Source: Pseudonocardia xinjiangensis
GTDB taxonomy: Bacteria; Actinomycetota; Actinomycetes; Mycobacteriales; Pseudonocardiaceae
NCBI RefSeq assembly: GCF_012911925.1
Contig: NZ_JAAXKY010000010.1
Span: forward strand, 1-64,000
Direction: 5' to 3'
Length of the DNA stretch: 64,000 nucleotides
The notes below the pieces were generated by a model. That model did not search any database. It saw only the letters and a program-made list of their open reading frames with translations, and was not told the origin of the DNA. Shown piece by piece: positions 14,612 through 20,627 of this stretch; positions within the stretch are counted from its first letter, which is position 1, and each line of letters starts with the position of its first letter. Position numbers and translations under genes: made by a program.

Positions 14612-14842
14612 TCAACGCGACAGCCGCTGCGCCAACATCTGCTTGCCCTGGTCGGCGCCCTTGCGGCTCTCCGCCTGCGCTCGCCGGAAGAACTCGGCCA
14701 GGTCGTCGTCGCCGTCGCGTTCGGCGTCCTGGGCGTAGGTCTCCAGACGGAGGGCGTTGTTCAGGCAGGCCTCGGTGAACCAGATCAGGTTGTAGTCCTT
14801 GTCCTTGGTCCCGGTGACCTGCCCGGTCTCGGTTGTCGACAC
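14612..14842 (-). CDS. Small hypothetical protein
   Basis: 76 residues from GTG 14842, with AAGGGAG 8 nt upstream. The sequence is mainly one or two amphipathic helices (LIWFTEACLNNALRLETYAQDAERDGDDDLAEFFRRAQAE given by its ends), followed by a basic tail. Helix spacing with Glu residues slightly resembles ferritin-like or rubrerythrin helices, but a single short chain cannot be assigned. It lies downstream of the Pls-type synthetase on the same strand, with 164 bp between, so co-transcription is possible but not shown. Confidence 0.6.
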   Translation of the reverse strand: MSTTETGQVTGTKDKDYNLIWFTEACLNNALRLETYAQDAERDGDDDLAEFFRRAQAESRKGADQGKQMLAQRLSR

Positions 14843-15006
14843 GACGTGCTCCCTTCTCGCGCTTACAGGATGCAACTCGTGCGTACCCGGAGTGTCGTGC
14901 ATCACACGTCCGACTCCGCCGGAAATTGCCCCGGGGCCGTCCCGCTGCCGTGCCGCCGAGATGACGGTGGTGCCATACCCCGGCCGGGATGTGGCACCAC
15001 CGTTCG

Positions 15007-18000
15007 TCACGACGACCTGCGCCGCCACCTGTGCCCGCGGGTGGGGTCGTAGGTCTCCTGGTGGGACCCCCCGGAACCGGAACTGCTGCGGGGCGTCGAG
15101 CACGAGTTGGCCGGGTGGGCGCCCCGCCGCTTGGCGTGCCGTCCGTGACGGGTCTGCCAGGCGGCCTGCCGAGCGGCCTGCCGCGCCTCGCGGGCGCCCC
15201 GCCGGGCCAGCTCGCGGATCTGCCGGCGCGTCGGTGGCACCGCCGGATCGCCGGCCTCGGAGATCTCGCGGGCGGGGTTGCCCTGCCAGCGGGTGTCCGC
15301 GCCGGGCTGCTCGCCCTTCATCAGGAAGGCGTCGGCCTCGACCACGACCCGCTCGCCCATGACCACGCCGTAGTGCACGTAGCTGTTGGCGCCGATCGTG
15401 CTGCCGCTGCCGATCACGACGTAGTCCGACTTGAAGCCGCCGTCCTCCAACGAGTGGCACTGGATCGTGGACTGGGCCCCGAGGGTGCAGTAGTCCCCGA
15501 TCGTCACCATCGTCTTCTCCGGCATGGCCGCGCCGTCGTCGAAGAGCTTCTTCCCGACGCGCACGCCGAGCAGCCGCCACACGATCGACTTGAACGGTGT
15601 GCCGTTGTAGATCTGGAGGTAGCCGGTCCCGCTCAGCTTCCAGAGGCGCTCGTGCCGCCAGAAGTACGGCTCGTAGATGGAGCAGAACTGCGGCCGGAGC
15701 CTGCGGAACCCGAAGCTGATGCGCTCTTCCAGGATCGAGTACAGCGTGGTGAACAGGAGCGCGGCGATGATCCCCAGCGCGTACGAGCTGACCCCGATGT
15801 CGCTGTAGAAGTAGCTCGAGAGCAGCCCGATGACGACGACGCCGAACCACTGCACCCACCGCATCAGCAGGAACAGCACGATCGTGACGGCGTTCGAGCG
15901 GTTCTTCCTGGCCAGCCTCGCCGGGAACTCCTCGTCGGTGCGGAACCGTTCGAGCTCGATGTCACGCTGGACGGAGCGGGGGATCTCGAAGGAGGGAGAC
16001 CCGAGAAGGCCCACCCCTTCCCGCACCGGGCCGTCCATCGGGATCATCGCCTTCGTGGCGAGCAGCACGTTGTCCCCGGTCCGGCCACCGGCCGGGTAGG
16101 TCACTGCGTTGCCCACGAAGCTGTTGTCGCCCAGCGACACCCGCGAGACCTTGAACGACGAGCTGGAGTAGTCGGCGTTCGCCATCGACAGGCCGTCCGA
16201 CACGAGCGTCCCGGTGCCCACGTGAGACAGGAACGGCGACTCGTGCTTCACCATCAGCCCGAAGTTCGACCCGGTCTGCTGCACGGTGGACAGGTCGTAC
16301 CCGATCATCTGCAGGTAGCGGATGATGAACGAGCTGTCGCCCAGCAGGTTGGTGAAGAACCCGATGTTGGTCATCCGGCGCAGCGCCCGGTGGGCCGTGT
16401 AGCGCAGCCCGTAGAGCTTGAGGGTGGTGTCCGCCGGCACGAGCCGGTTCAGCAGGCGCGGCAGAGTGGTGGCCACCAGCAGCCCGAGGAGCATCACGCC
16501 AAACAGAAGTGCGCCCGACACGAGGAAGTAGTCGAGGTAGAACCGGGGTTCCACGAACACGCTGCGGTCGGTGCCGTCCACGATGCCCTGGATCGCCGAT
16601 GCGGAGTTCACGGTGGGGAAGATGCTGGGCAGCGCGACCAGCAGCACGCCGGTGGCGAGCGGGCCCCAGACCAGCAGCATCCCGAGCAGCTGGGACGTGC
16701 CGTAGGCGAAGCGCCGGGCCCGGGTGCTGCCCAGCGGCTCCACGCGCCGGTAGTCGGCGGTCGTCTCCTGCGCGGGCGACCCGTGGTAGCTCGTGCCCGC
16801 AGGCACGTGCTGACCCGTGTGCAGCGACGACGTGTGGCCGAGCTGCGCCCCCTCCCCGACGGAGGTGCCGATGTCGAGCACGGTGGCCTCACCGATGAGG
16901 GCGCCCGCCCCGATGTCGACGCGGCCCGTCCGGATCCACCCGGACTCGGCTCGGTACCCACTGAAGAACGAGTCCTTGCGCACGACGGCGCCGGCCCCGA
17001 TGGAGATCAGGTCACCACAGACCGGCAGCGAGGTGGAGAGGACGACCGCACCCCTGCCGACCTTCACCCCGAGCATCCGGAGGTAGACCAGGTAGAGGGG
17101 AGAGCCGACGAACGCCAGCGCCGGGCTGACGCGCAGCAGCTGGCGCACCGTCCAGAACCGCAGGTAGGCGAACCCCCAGATCGGGATCACGCGCGGCTTC
17201 CAGCGACCGATCAACACCCATTTCGCCACGACCGGGAGCAGACTGAGAACGAGGAAGGCGCCCCCGCCCACGGCCACCGAACGCAGGTAGACGTCGGCCA
17301 GGCCGGTCGCCTCGGACACCCACTGGTACCCGGTGACGCCGACGAGCGCGACGACGTAGGCGAAGCCCACGTAGATCGCGGCCTGCGCGAACCCGGTGAA
17401 CAGGTACTGCGCCGTGCTCGCCCGGCGGACGGTGCGCGGCTCCACCTCGGTGCGGCGCGGGGCGCGGTCCTGCAGCGTCGCGGCGAGCTTCCGCACCGTG
17501 GGGTTCAGGTACATGTCCTTCATGCCCACCGACGGCAGTTCCTCGTGCACCCTCAGCTTCGCGCTCAGCTGGGCGATGATCAGCGAGTTCATGCCGAGGT
17601 CGTCGAAGAAGTCGCTCTCGACGGACACGCGGTCGAGCGAGAGCATCCCGGCGACGGCGGCGGCCACCAGCTCCTCGACCTCGCCTTCGGCCTCGACCAC
17701 CTCGCCCTGCGCCGCCTGGTAGCGGGGACCCTGCGGTGCGGGGAGGTTCTTGCGGTCGGCCTTGTCGCTCGGGAGCATCGGGATGCGCTCGAGCTGCTCG
17801 AAGTACGCGGGCACCATGTACTTGGGGAGCCGGCGGCGGAGCTCGTCGTGCAGGAGGTCGACGTCCACGGGCGGCCCCTGGCGGCGGCGCGTGTAGTAGG
17901 CCACGAGCTCCACCACACCCGGGGCGGGCTCGTAGGTGTCCACCACGGCCTGGGCGACACCGGGCAGCTGCAGGAGCAGCGACTCGATCTCGGTCAGCTC

Positions 18001-19344
18001 GATGCGGTAACCGCGGACCTTGACCTGTGTGTCGATCCGGCCGAGGGTCTCGACCATGCCGTTCTCGGTGATCCGGCCGAGGTCACCGCTGCGGTAGATG
18101 AGTCCTGAGGTGTTGTTGGGGATGCCCAGGACGTCGGGGATGAAGGCCTTCGCGGTGAGGTCGTCGCGGTTCACGTAACCGGCCGAGAGGCCGATGCCGG
18201 CGATGCCGATCTCGCCGAGCTCGCCGGGGAGCAGGGGGTGCTGGTCGTTCTCGTCGAGGATCACGATCGAGTACGTGGGGAGGGGAACGCCGATCGTCAC
18301 CGGCTGGTCGGGGTCCAGCGTCGTCCAGGTGGCGGTGACAGTGGCTTCGGTGGGGCCGTACACGTTGAGGAACCGCCTGCCGGGGCGGTGCCAGCGAGCC
18401 ACGAGGTCCTGGGGGCACGCCTCCCCGGAGACCAGCAGGAACCGCAGGTCGGGGAGGTCGTCGTCCATCGTCGCGAGCAGGGTGGGCACGCAGCACATGG
18501 CGGTGACGCCCTCCTCGCGGAGGAAGTCCGACAGGTCCTCGCCGAGCAGGCTGCCACCCCGCTTGGGTACGAGCGTCGCCCCCACGACGAGCGCGATCCA
18601 GATCTCCTCCACGGAGAAGTCGAACGCGATCGTCATGCCCTGGTACATGCGGTCGTCGGGGAGGACGCCGTAGGTCTCGGACGCGACCCGCACGAAGTTG
18701 CAGATGCTCGCGTGCTCGATCGCGACGCCCTTGGGGCGACCCGTCGTGCCGGAGGTGTAGATGATGTAGCAGAGGTCCTCCGCCGGCGTGCCCTGCTCGG
18801 CTGCGCTGAGCCGGGACCCGTCCTGGGCCTCGACCTCGTCCTGCACCTCGTCCACACACACCACGGCGGCCACCGCCTCCCCCACCTGCGCGCGCAGGTG
18901 GGAGAGGGTCAGCACGACGCTGACGCGGGCATCGCCCACGATGTAGGCGATGCGGTCGGGCGGGAACGCCGCGTCGAGCGGGACGTACGCGGCGTTGATC
19001 TTGAGTACCGCGAGCATGGCCACGTAGGACTGCAGCGGCTCGTCGAACACGAGCCCTACCCGTGCGCCTGGCCCGACCCCCCGGCCGAGCAGGAACCGGG
19101 CCATCCGGTTGGCTCGTGCGTTCAGCTCCGCGTAGGTGACCTCGAGGTCCCGCCTGCCCACGGCGAGATGCCCGGGGTCCCCGTCCGCCAGTAGCTGGTC
19201 GCACCGCTCCTCGAACAGGTGGTGCAGCCGTTCACCGGGCTTCCACCGCACCGACTGGTCGGTGTCGTCGCTGCTGAGTACCAGGTCCGCGAGCCGGCCG
19301 AACGCCCCAGCCGGCCGGGTCCCCTGGTCGAATCCGGTGCTCAT
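15007..19344 (-). CDS. Pls/PosA-family membrane nonribosomal peptide synthetase
   Basis: 1,445 residues. Order: adenylation domain (about 20-520; YTSGTTGRPKG, YGPTEAT, YRSGDLGR, final Lys in PSDKADRKN), carrier domain (DDLGMNSL, Ser near 586), then six transmembrane helices in three pairs, each pair followed by a soluble left-handed-helix-like domain (about 760-870, 1010-1110 and 1260-1390). This A-T-TM2-C1-TM2-C2-TM2-C3 layout is that of epsilon-poly-lysine synthetase. Aligned by eye to PheA, the substrate code reads D-F-E-C-L-S-V-V-T-K; the Glu suits a cationic amino acid. The first 4 bp overlap the diaminobutyrate aminotransferase gene, so the monomer is plausibly 2,4-diaminobutyrate. The last ~75 residues form an unusual Arg/Ser-rich tail. 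Confidence 0.88.
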   Translation of the reverse strand: MSTGFDQGTRPAGAFGRLADLVLSSDDTDQSVRWKPGERLHHLFEERCDQLLADGDPGHLAVGRRDLEVTYAELNARANRMARFLLGRGVGPGARVGLVFDEPLQSYVAMLAVLKINAAYVPLDAAFPPDRIAYIVGDARVSVVLTLSHLRAQVGEAVAAVVCVDEVQDEVEAQDGSRLSAAEQGTPAEDLCYIIYTSGTTGRPKGVAIEHASICNFVRVASETYGVLPDDRMYQGMTIAFDFSVEEIWIALVVGATLVPKRGGSLLGEDLSDFLREEGVTAMCCVPTLLATMDDDLPDLRFLLVSGEACPQDLVARWHRPGRRFLNVYGPTEATVTATWTTLDPDQPVTIGVPLPTYSIVILDENDQHPLLPGELGEIGIAGIGLSAGYVNRDDLTAKAFIPDVLGIPNNTSGLIYRSGDLGRITENGMVETLGRIDTQVKVRGYRIELTEIESLLLQLPGVAQAVVDTYEPAPGVVELVAYYTRRRQGPPVDVDLLHDELRRRLPKYMVPAYFEQLERIPMLPSDKADRKNLPAPQGPRYQAAQGEVVEAEGEVEELVAAAVAGMLSLDRVSVESDFFDDLGMNSLIIAQLSAKLRVHEELPSVGMKDMYLNPTVRKLAATLQDRAPRRTEVEPRTVRRASTAQYLFTGFAQAAIYVGFAYVVALVGVTGYQWVSEATGLADVYLRSVAVGGGAFLVLSLLPVVAKWVLIGRWKPRVIPIWGFAYLRFWTVRQLLRVSPALAFVGSPLYLVYLRMLGVKVGRGAVVLSTSLPVCGDLISIGAGAVVRKDSFFSGYRAESGWIRTGRVDIGAGALIGEATVLDIGTSVGEGAQLGHTSSLHTGQHVPAGTSYHGSPAQETTADYRRVEPLGSTRARRFAYGTSQLLGMLLVWGPLATGVLLVALPSIFPTVNSASAIQGIVDGTDRSVFVEPRFYLDYFLVSGALLFGVMLLGLLVATTLPRLLNRLVPADTTLKLYGLRYTAHRALRRMTNIGFFTNLLGDSSFIIRYLQMIGYDLSTVQQTGSNFGLMVKHESPFLSHVGTGTLVSDGLSMANADYSSSSFKVSRVSLGDNSFVGNAVTYPAGGRTGDNVLLATKAMIPMDGPVREGVGLLGSPSFEIPRSVQRDIELERFRTDEEFPARLARKNRSNAVTIVLFLLMRWVQWFGVVVIGLLSSYFYSDIGVSSYALGIIAALLFTTLYSILEERISFGFRRLRPQFCSIYEPYFWRHERLWKLSGTGYLQIYNGTPFKSIVWRLLGVRVGKKLFDDGAAMPEKTMVTIGDYCTLGAQSTIQCHSLEDGGFKSDYVVIGSGSTIGANSYVHYGVVMGERVVVEADAFLMKGEQPGADTRWQGNPAREISEAGDPAVPPTRRQIRELARRGAREARQAARQAAWQTRHGRHAKRRGAHPANSCSTPRSSSGSGGSHQETYDPTRGHRWRRRSS

Positions 19345-20627
19345 ACCGCGATGGCGTGCAGACCTGAGGCGGCCGACTCCTCGAGGATGTCGAGGCCGCG
19401 GTTCAGGAGCTGCTCGGACGTGGTGAGCGGGGCCAGGATCTTGACGACCTCGTCGCGGGGCCCGGCGGACTCCACGATCAGGCCCTGGCGGGCGCTCTGC
19501 CGGCAGATCTCGGCGGCGACGTCACCGTCGCGGACGTCGATGCCCTGCATCATCCCGCGGCCCTTGACCCGGGCGCCGGGGACGAGCTTCGCGATCCGCT
19601 CCAGCCGCTGTCCGACCAGCGCGCTGCTGCGCTCGATGTCCTCCTGGAAGCTCCGGTCGGCCCAGAACTTCTCCAGGGCCACCTTCGCGGTGACGAACGC
19701 GTGCGCGTTGCCGCGGAAGGTCCCGTTGTGCTCGCCGGGCTTCCAGATGTCCCACTCGGGTTTGATCAGGAGCAGCGACATCGGCAGGCCGAAGCCGGAG
19801 ATGGACTTGGACAGCGTCACGAGGTCCGGGGTCACGCCCGTGCCCTCGAAGCTGAAGAACGAGCCGGTCCGACCGACGCCCGCCTGGATGTCGTCGACGA
19901 TCAGCAGCGCGCCGTGTGCCTGGGCGGTGGCGGCGATGCGGCGCAGCCACGGCCGGGAGGCGACGTTGAGGCCGCCCTCGCCCTGAACCGTCTCGAGCAG
20001 GATCGCCGCGGGGGCGTCGACGCCGCTGGACGGGTCGGACAGCATCCGGTCGAGCATCTCGGCGGTGTCGATCGAGGCCCCGTGGTAGCCGTCGTAGGGC
20101 ATGCGGGTGACGTCGGGCAGGGAGAGCGTGGTCCCCATGCGGTTGTCCCGGTTCCCGGTGGCGGCCAGCGCGCCCTGGCTGACGCCGTGGAAGCCGTTGG
20201 TGAACGAGATGACGTTGCGGCGGCCGGTGACCTTCCTGGCCAGCTTGAGTGCGGCTTCCACCGCGTTCGTCCCGGTGGGGCCGGTGAACTGGATCCGGTA
20301 GTCCATGCCGCGGGGCTCCAGGACCAGGCCTTCGAAGGCCTCCAGGAACTCCATCTTCGGCCGGGTGAACAGGTCGAGGCCCTGCGCGATGCCCCCGCCC
20401 CGGATGTGGGCGATGAGCGCCTCGGCCATGTCGGGGTCGTTGTGGCCGTAGTTCAGGGAGCCGGCGCCGGCGAGGAAGTCCAGGTACTCCCGACCCTCGG
20501 CGTCCCAGACGAGGGTGCCGCGGGCCCCCTCGAACACGATCTCGTACTTGCGGCTGTAGCTCCGGACACGCGACTCGCGCCGCGCGAAAACGTCCATGCC
20601 GGTCGAGTTCCGGCGTTCAGTCATCAT
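19341..20627 (-). CDS. ectB: Diaminobutyrate--2-oxoglutarate aminotransferase (EctB type)
   Basis: 428 residues. Class III PLP aminotransferase: GPTGTNAVEAALKLAR, FTNGFHGVSQGALA, VDDIQAGVGRTG and the PLP Lys in TLSKSISGFG. The N-terminus FARRESRVRSYSRKYEIVFE and the overall length match EctB, which converts aspartate semialdehyde plus glutamate to L-2,4-diaminobutyrate. No ectA or ectC is present, so ectoine is not the product here. The stop overlaps the Pls-type synthetase start (ATGA), tying the enzyme to peptide synthesis. The first ATG (20627) is used; starts at 20624 or 20597 are possible and the ribosome site is weak. Confidence 0.9.
   Translation of the reverse strand: MMTERRNSTGMDVFARRESRVRSYSRKYEIVFEGARGTLVWDAEGREYLDFLAGAGSLNYGHNDPDMAEALIAHIRGGGIAQGLDLFTRPKMEFLEAFEGLVLEPRGMDYRIQFTGPTGTNAVEAALKLARKVTGRRNVISFTNGFHGVSQGALAATGNRDNRMGTTLSLPDVTRMPYDGYHGASIDTAEMLDRMLSDPSSGVDAPAAILLETVQGEGGLNVASRPWLRRIAATAQAHGALLIVDDIQAGVGRTGSFFSFEGTGVTPDLVTLSKSISGFGLPMSLLLIKPEWDIWKPGEHNGTFRGNAHAFVTAKVALEKFWADRSFQEDIERSSALVGQRLERIAKLVPGARVKGRGMMQGIDVRDGDVAAEICRQSARQGLIVESAGPRDEVVKILAPLTTSEQLLNRGLDILEESAASGLHAIAV

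Follow-up and report, generated by a model that had tools for sequence, protein, structure and literature searches.

A two-gene locus of Pseudonocardia xinjiangensis with an ectoine-type EctB and a Pls/PosA-family synthetase, predicted to make poly-2,4-diaminobutyrate

Poly-2,4-diaminobutyrate (poly-Dab) systems that combine a Dab aminotransferase with a Pls-family synthetase are already known. In the parts of the respective sources that bear on them, the pldA locus of Streptomyces celluloflavus is listed with dat and ask (PMC8117764), and PddB of the poly-D-Dab producer Streptoalloteichus hindustanus is presented as a DapF-like racemase translationally coupled to pddA (PMC8225329). Here, we describe a locus of Pseudonocardia xinjiangensis in which the gene for an ectoine-type EctB aminotransferase directly precedes that for a Pls/PosA-family synthetase, located in a stretch of 64,000 nucleotides (contig NZ_JAAXKY010000010.1, positions 1 to 64,000; hereafter the window) from an assembly of 308 contigs that is 99% complete (G000; G denotes genomes and L fetched loci).

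Based on the analysis below, we consider it probable, with good confidence, that this is a two-gene operon for gamma-poly-L-Dab resembling the PldA system, with its monomer coming from an ectoine-type EctB and without a local aspartate kinase. What appears to be new here is the ectoine-type EctB as the supplier, and neither such an EctB nor a fused aminotransferase was named together with a Pls-family synthetase in the titles and abstract openings of the open-access papers listed in our searches.

The gene pair and the adenylation-domain code

The EctB-type gene, predicted to encode an L-2,4-diaminobutyrate:2-oxoglutarate aminotransferase for monomer supply, spans exactly 19341-20627 on the minus strand (428 aa, or 418 aa from a possible alternative start), and the synthetase gene spans exactly 15007-19344 on the same strand (1,445 aa). 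The stop codon of the former and the start codon of the latter share the four base pairs ATGA at 19341-19344 (GTATGAGC), as an earlier note made from the sequence letters had described, and the two genes would be co-transcribed.

The synthetase is confirmed as a member of the Pls/PosA family and is predicted to form a homopolymer. It matched TIGR02353, the model of Pls/PosA-family nonribosomal peptide synthetases (NRPS), with 669 bits (cut-off 423.1) through its terminal region C1, C2 and C3 (residues 652-1358; 15271-17391, minus strand), and hence the C1-C3 similarity to Pls expected by the earlier note is present. Its adenylation (A) domain (residues 54-534; 17743-19185, minus strand) scored 408 bits with TIGR01733 (cut-off 317.4), and in Pfam the protein matched AMP-binding (PF00501), AMP-binding_C (PF13193), PP-binding (PF00550) and Hexapep. 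The thiolation (T) domain (residues 560-624; 17473-17667, minus strand) scored 27.7 bits with PF00550 (cut-off 20.8) and carries the presumed pantetheine-accepting Ser in a DDLGMNSLI motif that was aligned across relatives, while no canonical condensation or thioesterase (TE) domain was matched in the synthetase (Pfam, E 0.001). The hydrophobic stretches form six clusters by hydropathy, giving the layout A-T-TM6-C1-3. A confident AlphaFold model of residues 641-1445 (44 sequences; predicted local distance difference test, pLDDT, 86.2; predicted template modelling score 0.84) displays a long helix pair and a left-handed beta-helix repeated three times, the top PDB matches of which in Foldseek are hexapeptide acetyltransferases, so that the six transmembrane helices and three left-handed beta-helix domains read from the sequence earlier were recovered. 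The same arrangement of membrane helices and beta-helices is described for PosA in the relevant portion of PMC10522769. Additionally, the A-domain model (pLDDT 83.5) retrieved the PosA A domain 8g95 (root-mean-square deviation 3.4 Å), the Pls A domain 7wew and GrsA among many other A domains.

The A-domain code was read by alignment as DFECLSVVTK (D242, F243, E246, C284, L304, S306, V328, V336, T337 and K528). In the GrsA numbering, Phe stands at position 236 and Glu at position 239, the latter being the residue that the earlier note had pointed out and one that agrees with a cationic side chain. The register of this reading is checked, because L025, a distant paralogue in the same genome, extracts as DGESVSVVNK, which equals in nine of the ten places the epsilon-poly-beta-lysine code DGESISVVNK given in a section of PMC10522769. 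The Asp and Glu of the binding pocket, called family-conserved there, are both present (D242 and E246). In the same section, Phe at code position 2 is assigned to poly-Dab and poly-2,3-diaminopropionate (poly-Dap) synthetases, whereas Pls has Ala there and PosA has Met. Therefore, with Phe (F243) in place of Ala or Met, a shorter diamino acid is predicted, and nothing in the code indicates a preference for a non-cationic amino acid. DFECLSVVTK thus points to a short diamino acid without telling which, and section 10 of PMC10522769 calls it difficult to tell poly-Dab from poly-Dap synthetases by alignment alone.

The ectoine-type EctB and its conserved partnership

EctB enzymes produce L-Dab from aspartate semialdehyde and glutamate. 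The window EctB scored 599.2 bits with the ectoine_EctB model TIGR02407 (cut-off 552.2) and 621.4 bits with NF006733 (cut-off 438), and matched Aminotran_3 in Pfam. The earlier note had argued from the absence of ectA and ectC, which holds for the window, where neither EctA nor EctC was matched, but not for the genome, in which ectA, ectB, ectC and ectD stand together on contig C152. That cluster possesses its own EctB, 52% identical to the window EctB and placed in a different clade; therefore, the window EctB is a dedicated paralogue, and the earlier argument, though incomplete, leads to a conclusion that survives. The candidate that the window EctB is an ectoine duplicate was rejected for the same reason.

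Across 62 genomes of the genus, EctB identities to the window protein are 100, 88, 85, 70 and 67%, and then at most 53%. With an E-value of 1e-150 chosen from these identities and four candidates scored per genome, the close form turned up in 5 of 390 genomes of the family, all in the window's genus. In the EctB tree, the five form one group (93/93) that is sister to the ectoine-type EctB, and both groups are far from the 12 aminotransferases of the other synthetase loci (100/99), which represent the usual kind there.

The gene pair, EctB directly followed by the synthetase, is kept in four genomes (G000, G004, G025 and G009), those behind the EctB identities of 100, 88, 70 and 67%, and outside the window the junction is a 4-bp overlap in L122 (ATGA) and L119 (GTGA) and a short gap in L120. 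Between the window and L029, whose synthetase (81% identical) is the same gene as that in L122, the ratio of nonsynonymous to synonymous substitution rates (dN/dS) is 0.17 for EctB and 0.30 for the whole synthetase, being 0.17 for the A domain, 0.48 for the T domain and 0.32 for the terminal region. Purifying selection together with the presence in four genomes therefore argues that the pair is not a product of chance. In the synthetase tree, the G009 partner groups with L020 and L024 (100/98) and the other three partners group together (100/100). By the two trees, the five-EctB clade thus partners two synthetase lineages, and EctB may have been swapped between them.

A similar association was observed in Arthrobacter crusticola (L049:3001-4230), where 5.8 kb, including an aspartate kinase gene, separate an EctB-type gene from a synthetase with the code DFECLSVVTK, and where the locus gave no EctA or EctC match. 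This locus, labelled "ectoine" and "noDAT" in our trees, may be a second case in which an ectoine-type EctB was recruited.

Monomer identity, product and rival explanations

The association of the code with partner genes was surveyed in named genomes, in which at least 593 pattern matches were obtained, 559 were confirmed and the best 80 loci were kept; the nearest named relative and many of the other hits belong to Pseudonocardia. Together with the window and nine paralogues of its genome, 90 synthetases were read, L025 being left out for a terminal domain below the script's 400 bits. An A domain was present in the same frame in 24 of them, and the remaining 66 are termed A-less, a label that means no A domain in the same open frame and that includes some loci near contig ends. 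The code is exactly DFECLSVVTK in 17 of the 24. In 13 of these 17, a Dab aminotransferase is either fused to the synthetase or encoded within about 2.3 kb of its terminal domain, with the aminotransferase frame of L075 and L097 split in two by decay or sequencing error; in L049 it lies at the distance given above. The designation as Dab aminotransferase is anchored on L020, which passes TIGR00709 (451.5 versus 401.6 bits), and L021, which narrowly misses it (399.5 bits), and was extended to other loci by similarity to these two. Among the best 80 named loci, a Dab aminotransferase occurs within 8 kb in 12 of the 19 A-containing loci (L049 counted) versus 0 of the 61 A-less ones, of which 51 contain SbnA and 50 SbnB; as the rows are related, the events behind this contrast are not independent of one another. 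Since a Dab aminotransferase adjoins or is fused to 13 of the 17 same-code synthetases and lies within 8 kb at none of the 61 named A-less loci, Dab is favoured over Dap as the monomer, in agreement with the diaminobutyrate suggested by the earlier note. Synthetase and aminotransferase even share one open frame in L020 (6489-12221, plus strand; 1,910 aa), L123 and L124, while in L125 and L126 the two genes stand in this order without being fused. Aspartate kinase genes were found in 7 of the 19 A-containing named loci (L049, L073, L079, L085, L086, L096 and L097), all five of those tested with family models passing TIGR00657, and the pldA-like combination of aminotransferase and aspartate kinase was seen in L085 and L096.

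As to the supply of the monomer, SbnA, SbnB and KamA-like genes gave no match anywhere in the window, and together with aspartate kinase they gave none in L029, L119, L120 and L121 either. The window itself likewise yielded no aspartate kinase match, and the EctB-synthetase pair therefore presumably relies on housekeeping aspartate semialdehyde. With regard to stereochemistry, one DapF-family (PF01678) protein was found in the genome, as two half-matches in one frame, and no DapF-like protein was matched in the window; therefore, with no sign of a PddB-like racemase, L-Dab is likelier than D-Dab. We propose that EctB would transaminate L-aspartate semialdehyde with glutamate to produce L-Dab, which the A domain would activate as the adenylate and the T domain would hold as the thioester. 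Subsequently, by analogy with Pls, the membrane-embedded beta-helix domains C1-C3 could link the units in series, each through its carboxyl group to the side-chain amine of its successor, yielding a gamma-amide (isopeptide) polycation that would be released and exported and, by analogy, may function as an antimicrobial or antiviral agent.

Several other explanations were weighed. A product other than a long homopolymer is unlikely, be it an isopeptide that contains Dab and is short or mixed, or Dab oligomers attached to another molecule. In the window genome and its relatives, A-less synthetases are accompanied by TauD genes and separate A-T-TE proteins, so the Pls family also works in assemblies, and, as stated in a portion of PMC4668381, polymerisation may be restricted to certain substrates by enzyme parts other than the A domain. 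However, in window positions 5001-30000 the A-T-TE query matched only the A-T region of the synthetase itself and TauD was unmatched, and the layout of the synthetase equals that of characterised homopolymer synthetases. That the synthetase polymerises L-Dap while EctB serves something else is very unlikely, even though contigs C50 and C55 of the window genome both carry SbnA genes, C55 together with an SbnB gene, and L021 combines the same code with adjoining genes for both SbnA and a Dab aminotransferase. The lack of SbnA and SbnB matches in the window speaks against it, as do the conservation of the pair in four genomes and the altered codes, with no Lys aligned at 517, of most A-containing synthetases beside SbnA or SbnB, L021 excepted.

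Poly-D-Dab, as formed with PddA of Streptoalloteichus hindustanus, is highly improbable as the product. We are aware of no means by which the A-domain code would distinguish L- from D-Dab, and portions of PMC8225329 and PMC8117764 present PddA as this kind of synthetase. Yet the coupled racemase gene that accompanies pddA has no counterpart among the window matches, and in a genome of this completeness a single PF01678 protein was found. Finally, the notion that the window EctB is a spare ectoine copy lying beside the synthetase by accident draws on its passing the ectoine_EctB cut-off and on the ectABCD cluster elsewhere in the genome. It is extremely improbable given the distinct EctB of that cluster, the separate clade of the window EctB and its coupling to a synthetase in four of the five genomes in which the clade was found.

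Some observations nevertheless weigh against the PldA-like operon for gamma-poly-L-Dab. Unlike the pldA and pddA loci, the window yielded no aspartate kinase match with two queries (E 0.001). The support of 93/93 for the five-EctB clade falls below the star of the tree tool, and the synthetase tree comprises 26 rows only. In the fifth genome of the clade, G046 (L121:7187-7431), after the EctB orthologue (85%) come about 38 codons that resemble the start of the synthetase, beyond which the downstream region begins, and EctB thus persists at that place without a synthetase. Unless the gap is an assembly fault rather than a deletion, this EctB may serve another purpose there. Three DFECLSVVTK loci (L024, L034 and L107) have no aminotransferase within 8 kb, and L021, in which Dab aminotransferase and SbnA genes both adjoin, cuts across the contrast between A-containing and A-less loci. 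Moreover, the likeness to the PldA and PddA systems was judged by their published descriptions.

Genomic setting and comparison with known systems

The family models identified NAD synthase, short-chain dehydrogenases/reductases (SDR), an alpha/beta hydrolase and a lipoprotein as neighbours in the window, and the SDR upstream and the NAD synthase downstream are common to the window and L029, as judged by matching protein starts and gene order. An open reading frame of 96 aa (14612-14902, minus strand) downstream of the synthetase was left out as a third operon member, as a 76% identical homologue was found in L121 and none in L029 by the same search; the L121 copy had no NCBIfam match. The basic C-terminal tail noticed earlier (residues 1359-1445; 15010-15270, minus strand) is real, comprising 87 residues beyond the family domain with 20 K/R versus 7 D/E and a helix predicted by AlphaFold at about 1373-1406. 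A comparable tail was seen in L029 (and the same gene in L122) only, the more distant rows compared being without one, and its dN/dS of about 0.8 between the window and L029 indicates weak constraint. Because tails vary among relatives and are weakly constrained, the tail was rejected as a defining feature. The EctB-partnered synthetase of L119 (4373-9934, minus strand) bears a 496-residue C-terminal extension, apparently rich in hydrophobic stretches.

The window genome contains 11 TIGR02353 matches over the cut-off (on contigs C308, C111, C253, C50 with two, C55 with two, C124, C259, C11 and C166), six of them with an A domain in the same frame. The five that lack one there are L018, L019 and L023 plus a single one at each of L021 and L022. 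The genome ranks second among the 62 of the genus, in which G004 has at least 15 and the other 60 have 0 to 7 (E 1e-100, with up to 15 scored per genome); copy counts across the family, for which two candidates per genome were scored, were set aside. One of the 11 genes is fused to a Dab aminotransferase (L020), and as a group they may come with supplies for Dab, Dap and beta-lysine. At L025 (7303-15112, minus strand), the DGESVSVVNK synthetase is located beside a KamA-like protein (160 bits, below the cut-off), DapA (above the cut-off) and an aspartate kinase, and this is predicted from the code and neighbours to be an epsilon-poly-beta-lysine locus. Another cluster, widespread in Streptomyces and others, combines an A-less protein of T and membrane terminal domains with a separate A-T-TE protein, a TauD dioxygenase, SbnB and SbnA; examples are L022 and L023, and many of the 61 named A-less loci, L030-L032 among them, also have it. 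In 7 of 16 loci fetched from the genus, the code of its separate A domain is DIWQSTADDK. Altered or truncated A domains beside SbnA and/or SbnB (e.g., GGECLSAVAR, with no Lys aligned at 517) occur in L022, L081, L099, L127, L128 and L130-L134, as if these synthetases were loaded in trans.

We tentatively suggest the possibility that EctB was captured from the ectoine pathway and has since moved from one synthetase lineage to another, and that the genome acts as a polycation factory making several cationic isopeptides, some possibly new. If true, the recruitment of an ectoine-type EctB would show how polymer pathways swap their monomer supply. The combination of code and partner gene offers a testable rule for separating poly-Dab from poly-Dap loci, and this genome, with its 11 family members and natural fusion, brings testable polycation pathways together in a compact form. 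Polycations attract interest as antimicrobial and antiviral agents and as cell-penetrating carriers.

In comparison with known systems, the window locus shares with Pls (epsilon-poly-L-lysine) and PosA (delta-poly-L-ornithine) the TIGR02353 match, the A-T-TM6-C1-3 layout, the three beta-helices and the Asp and Glu of the code, and differs in the residue at code position 2, which is Ala in Pls, Met in PosA and Phe here. Its EctB is of the same enzyme type as the ectoine EctB and matches the same equivalog model, but it lacks adjoining ectA and ectC, belongs to a separate clade and is linked to a synthetase. With the PddA-PddD system for gamma-poly-D-Dab, the locus has in common the kind of synthetase and a Dab aminotransferase as the monomer supply, whereas no PddB-like racemase was found at the locus or, apart from the one DapF-family protein, in the genome, and no PddD-like aspartate kinase was found in the window. 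The PldA locus has the same synthetase architecture, an adjoining Dab aminotransferase, no racemase and probably the same product, and the window locus differs from it in the ectoine-type EctB placed upstream with a 4-bp overlap, in that no aspartate kinase was found in the window, and in the basic C-terminal tail of its synthetase.

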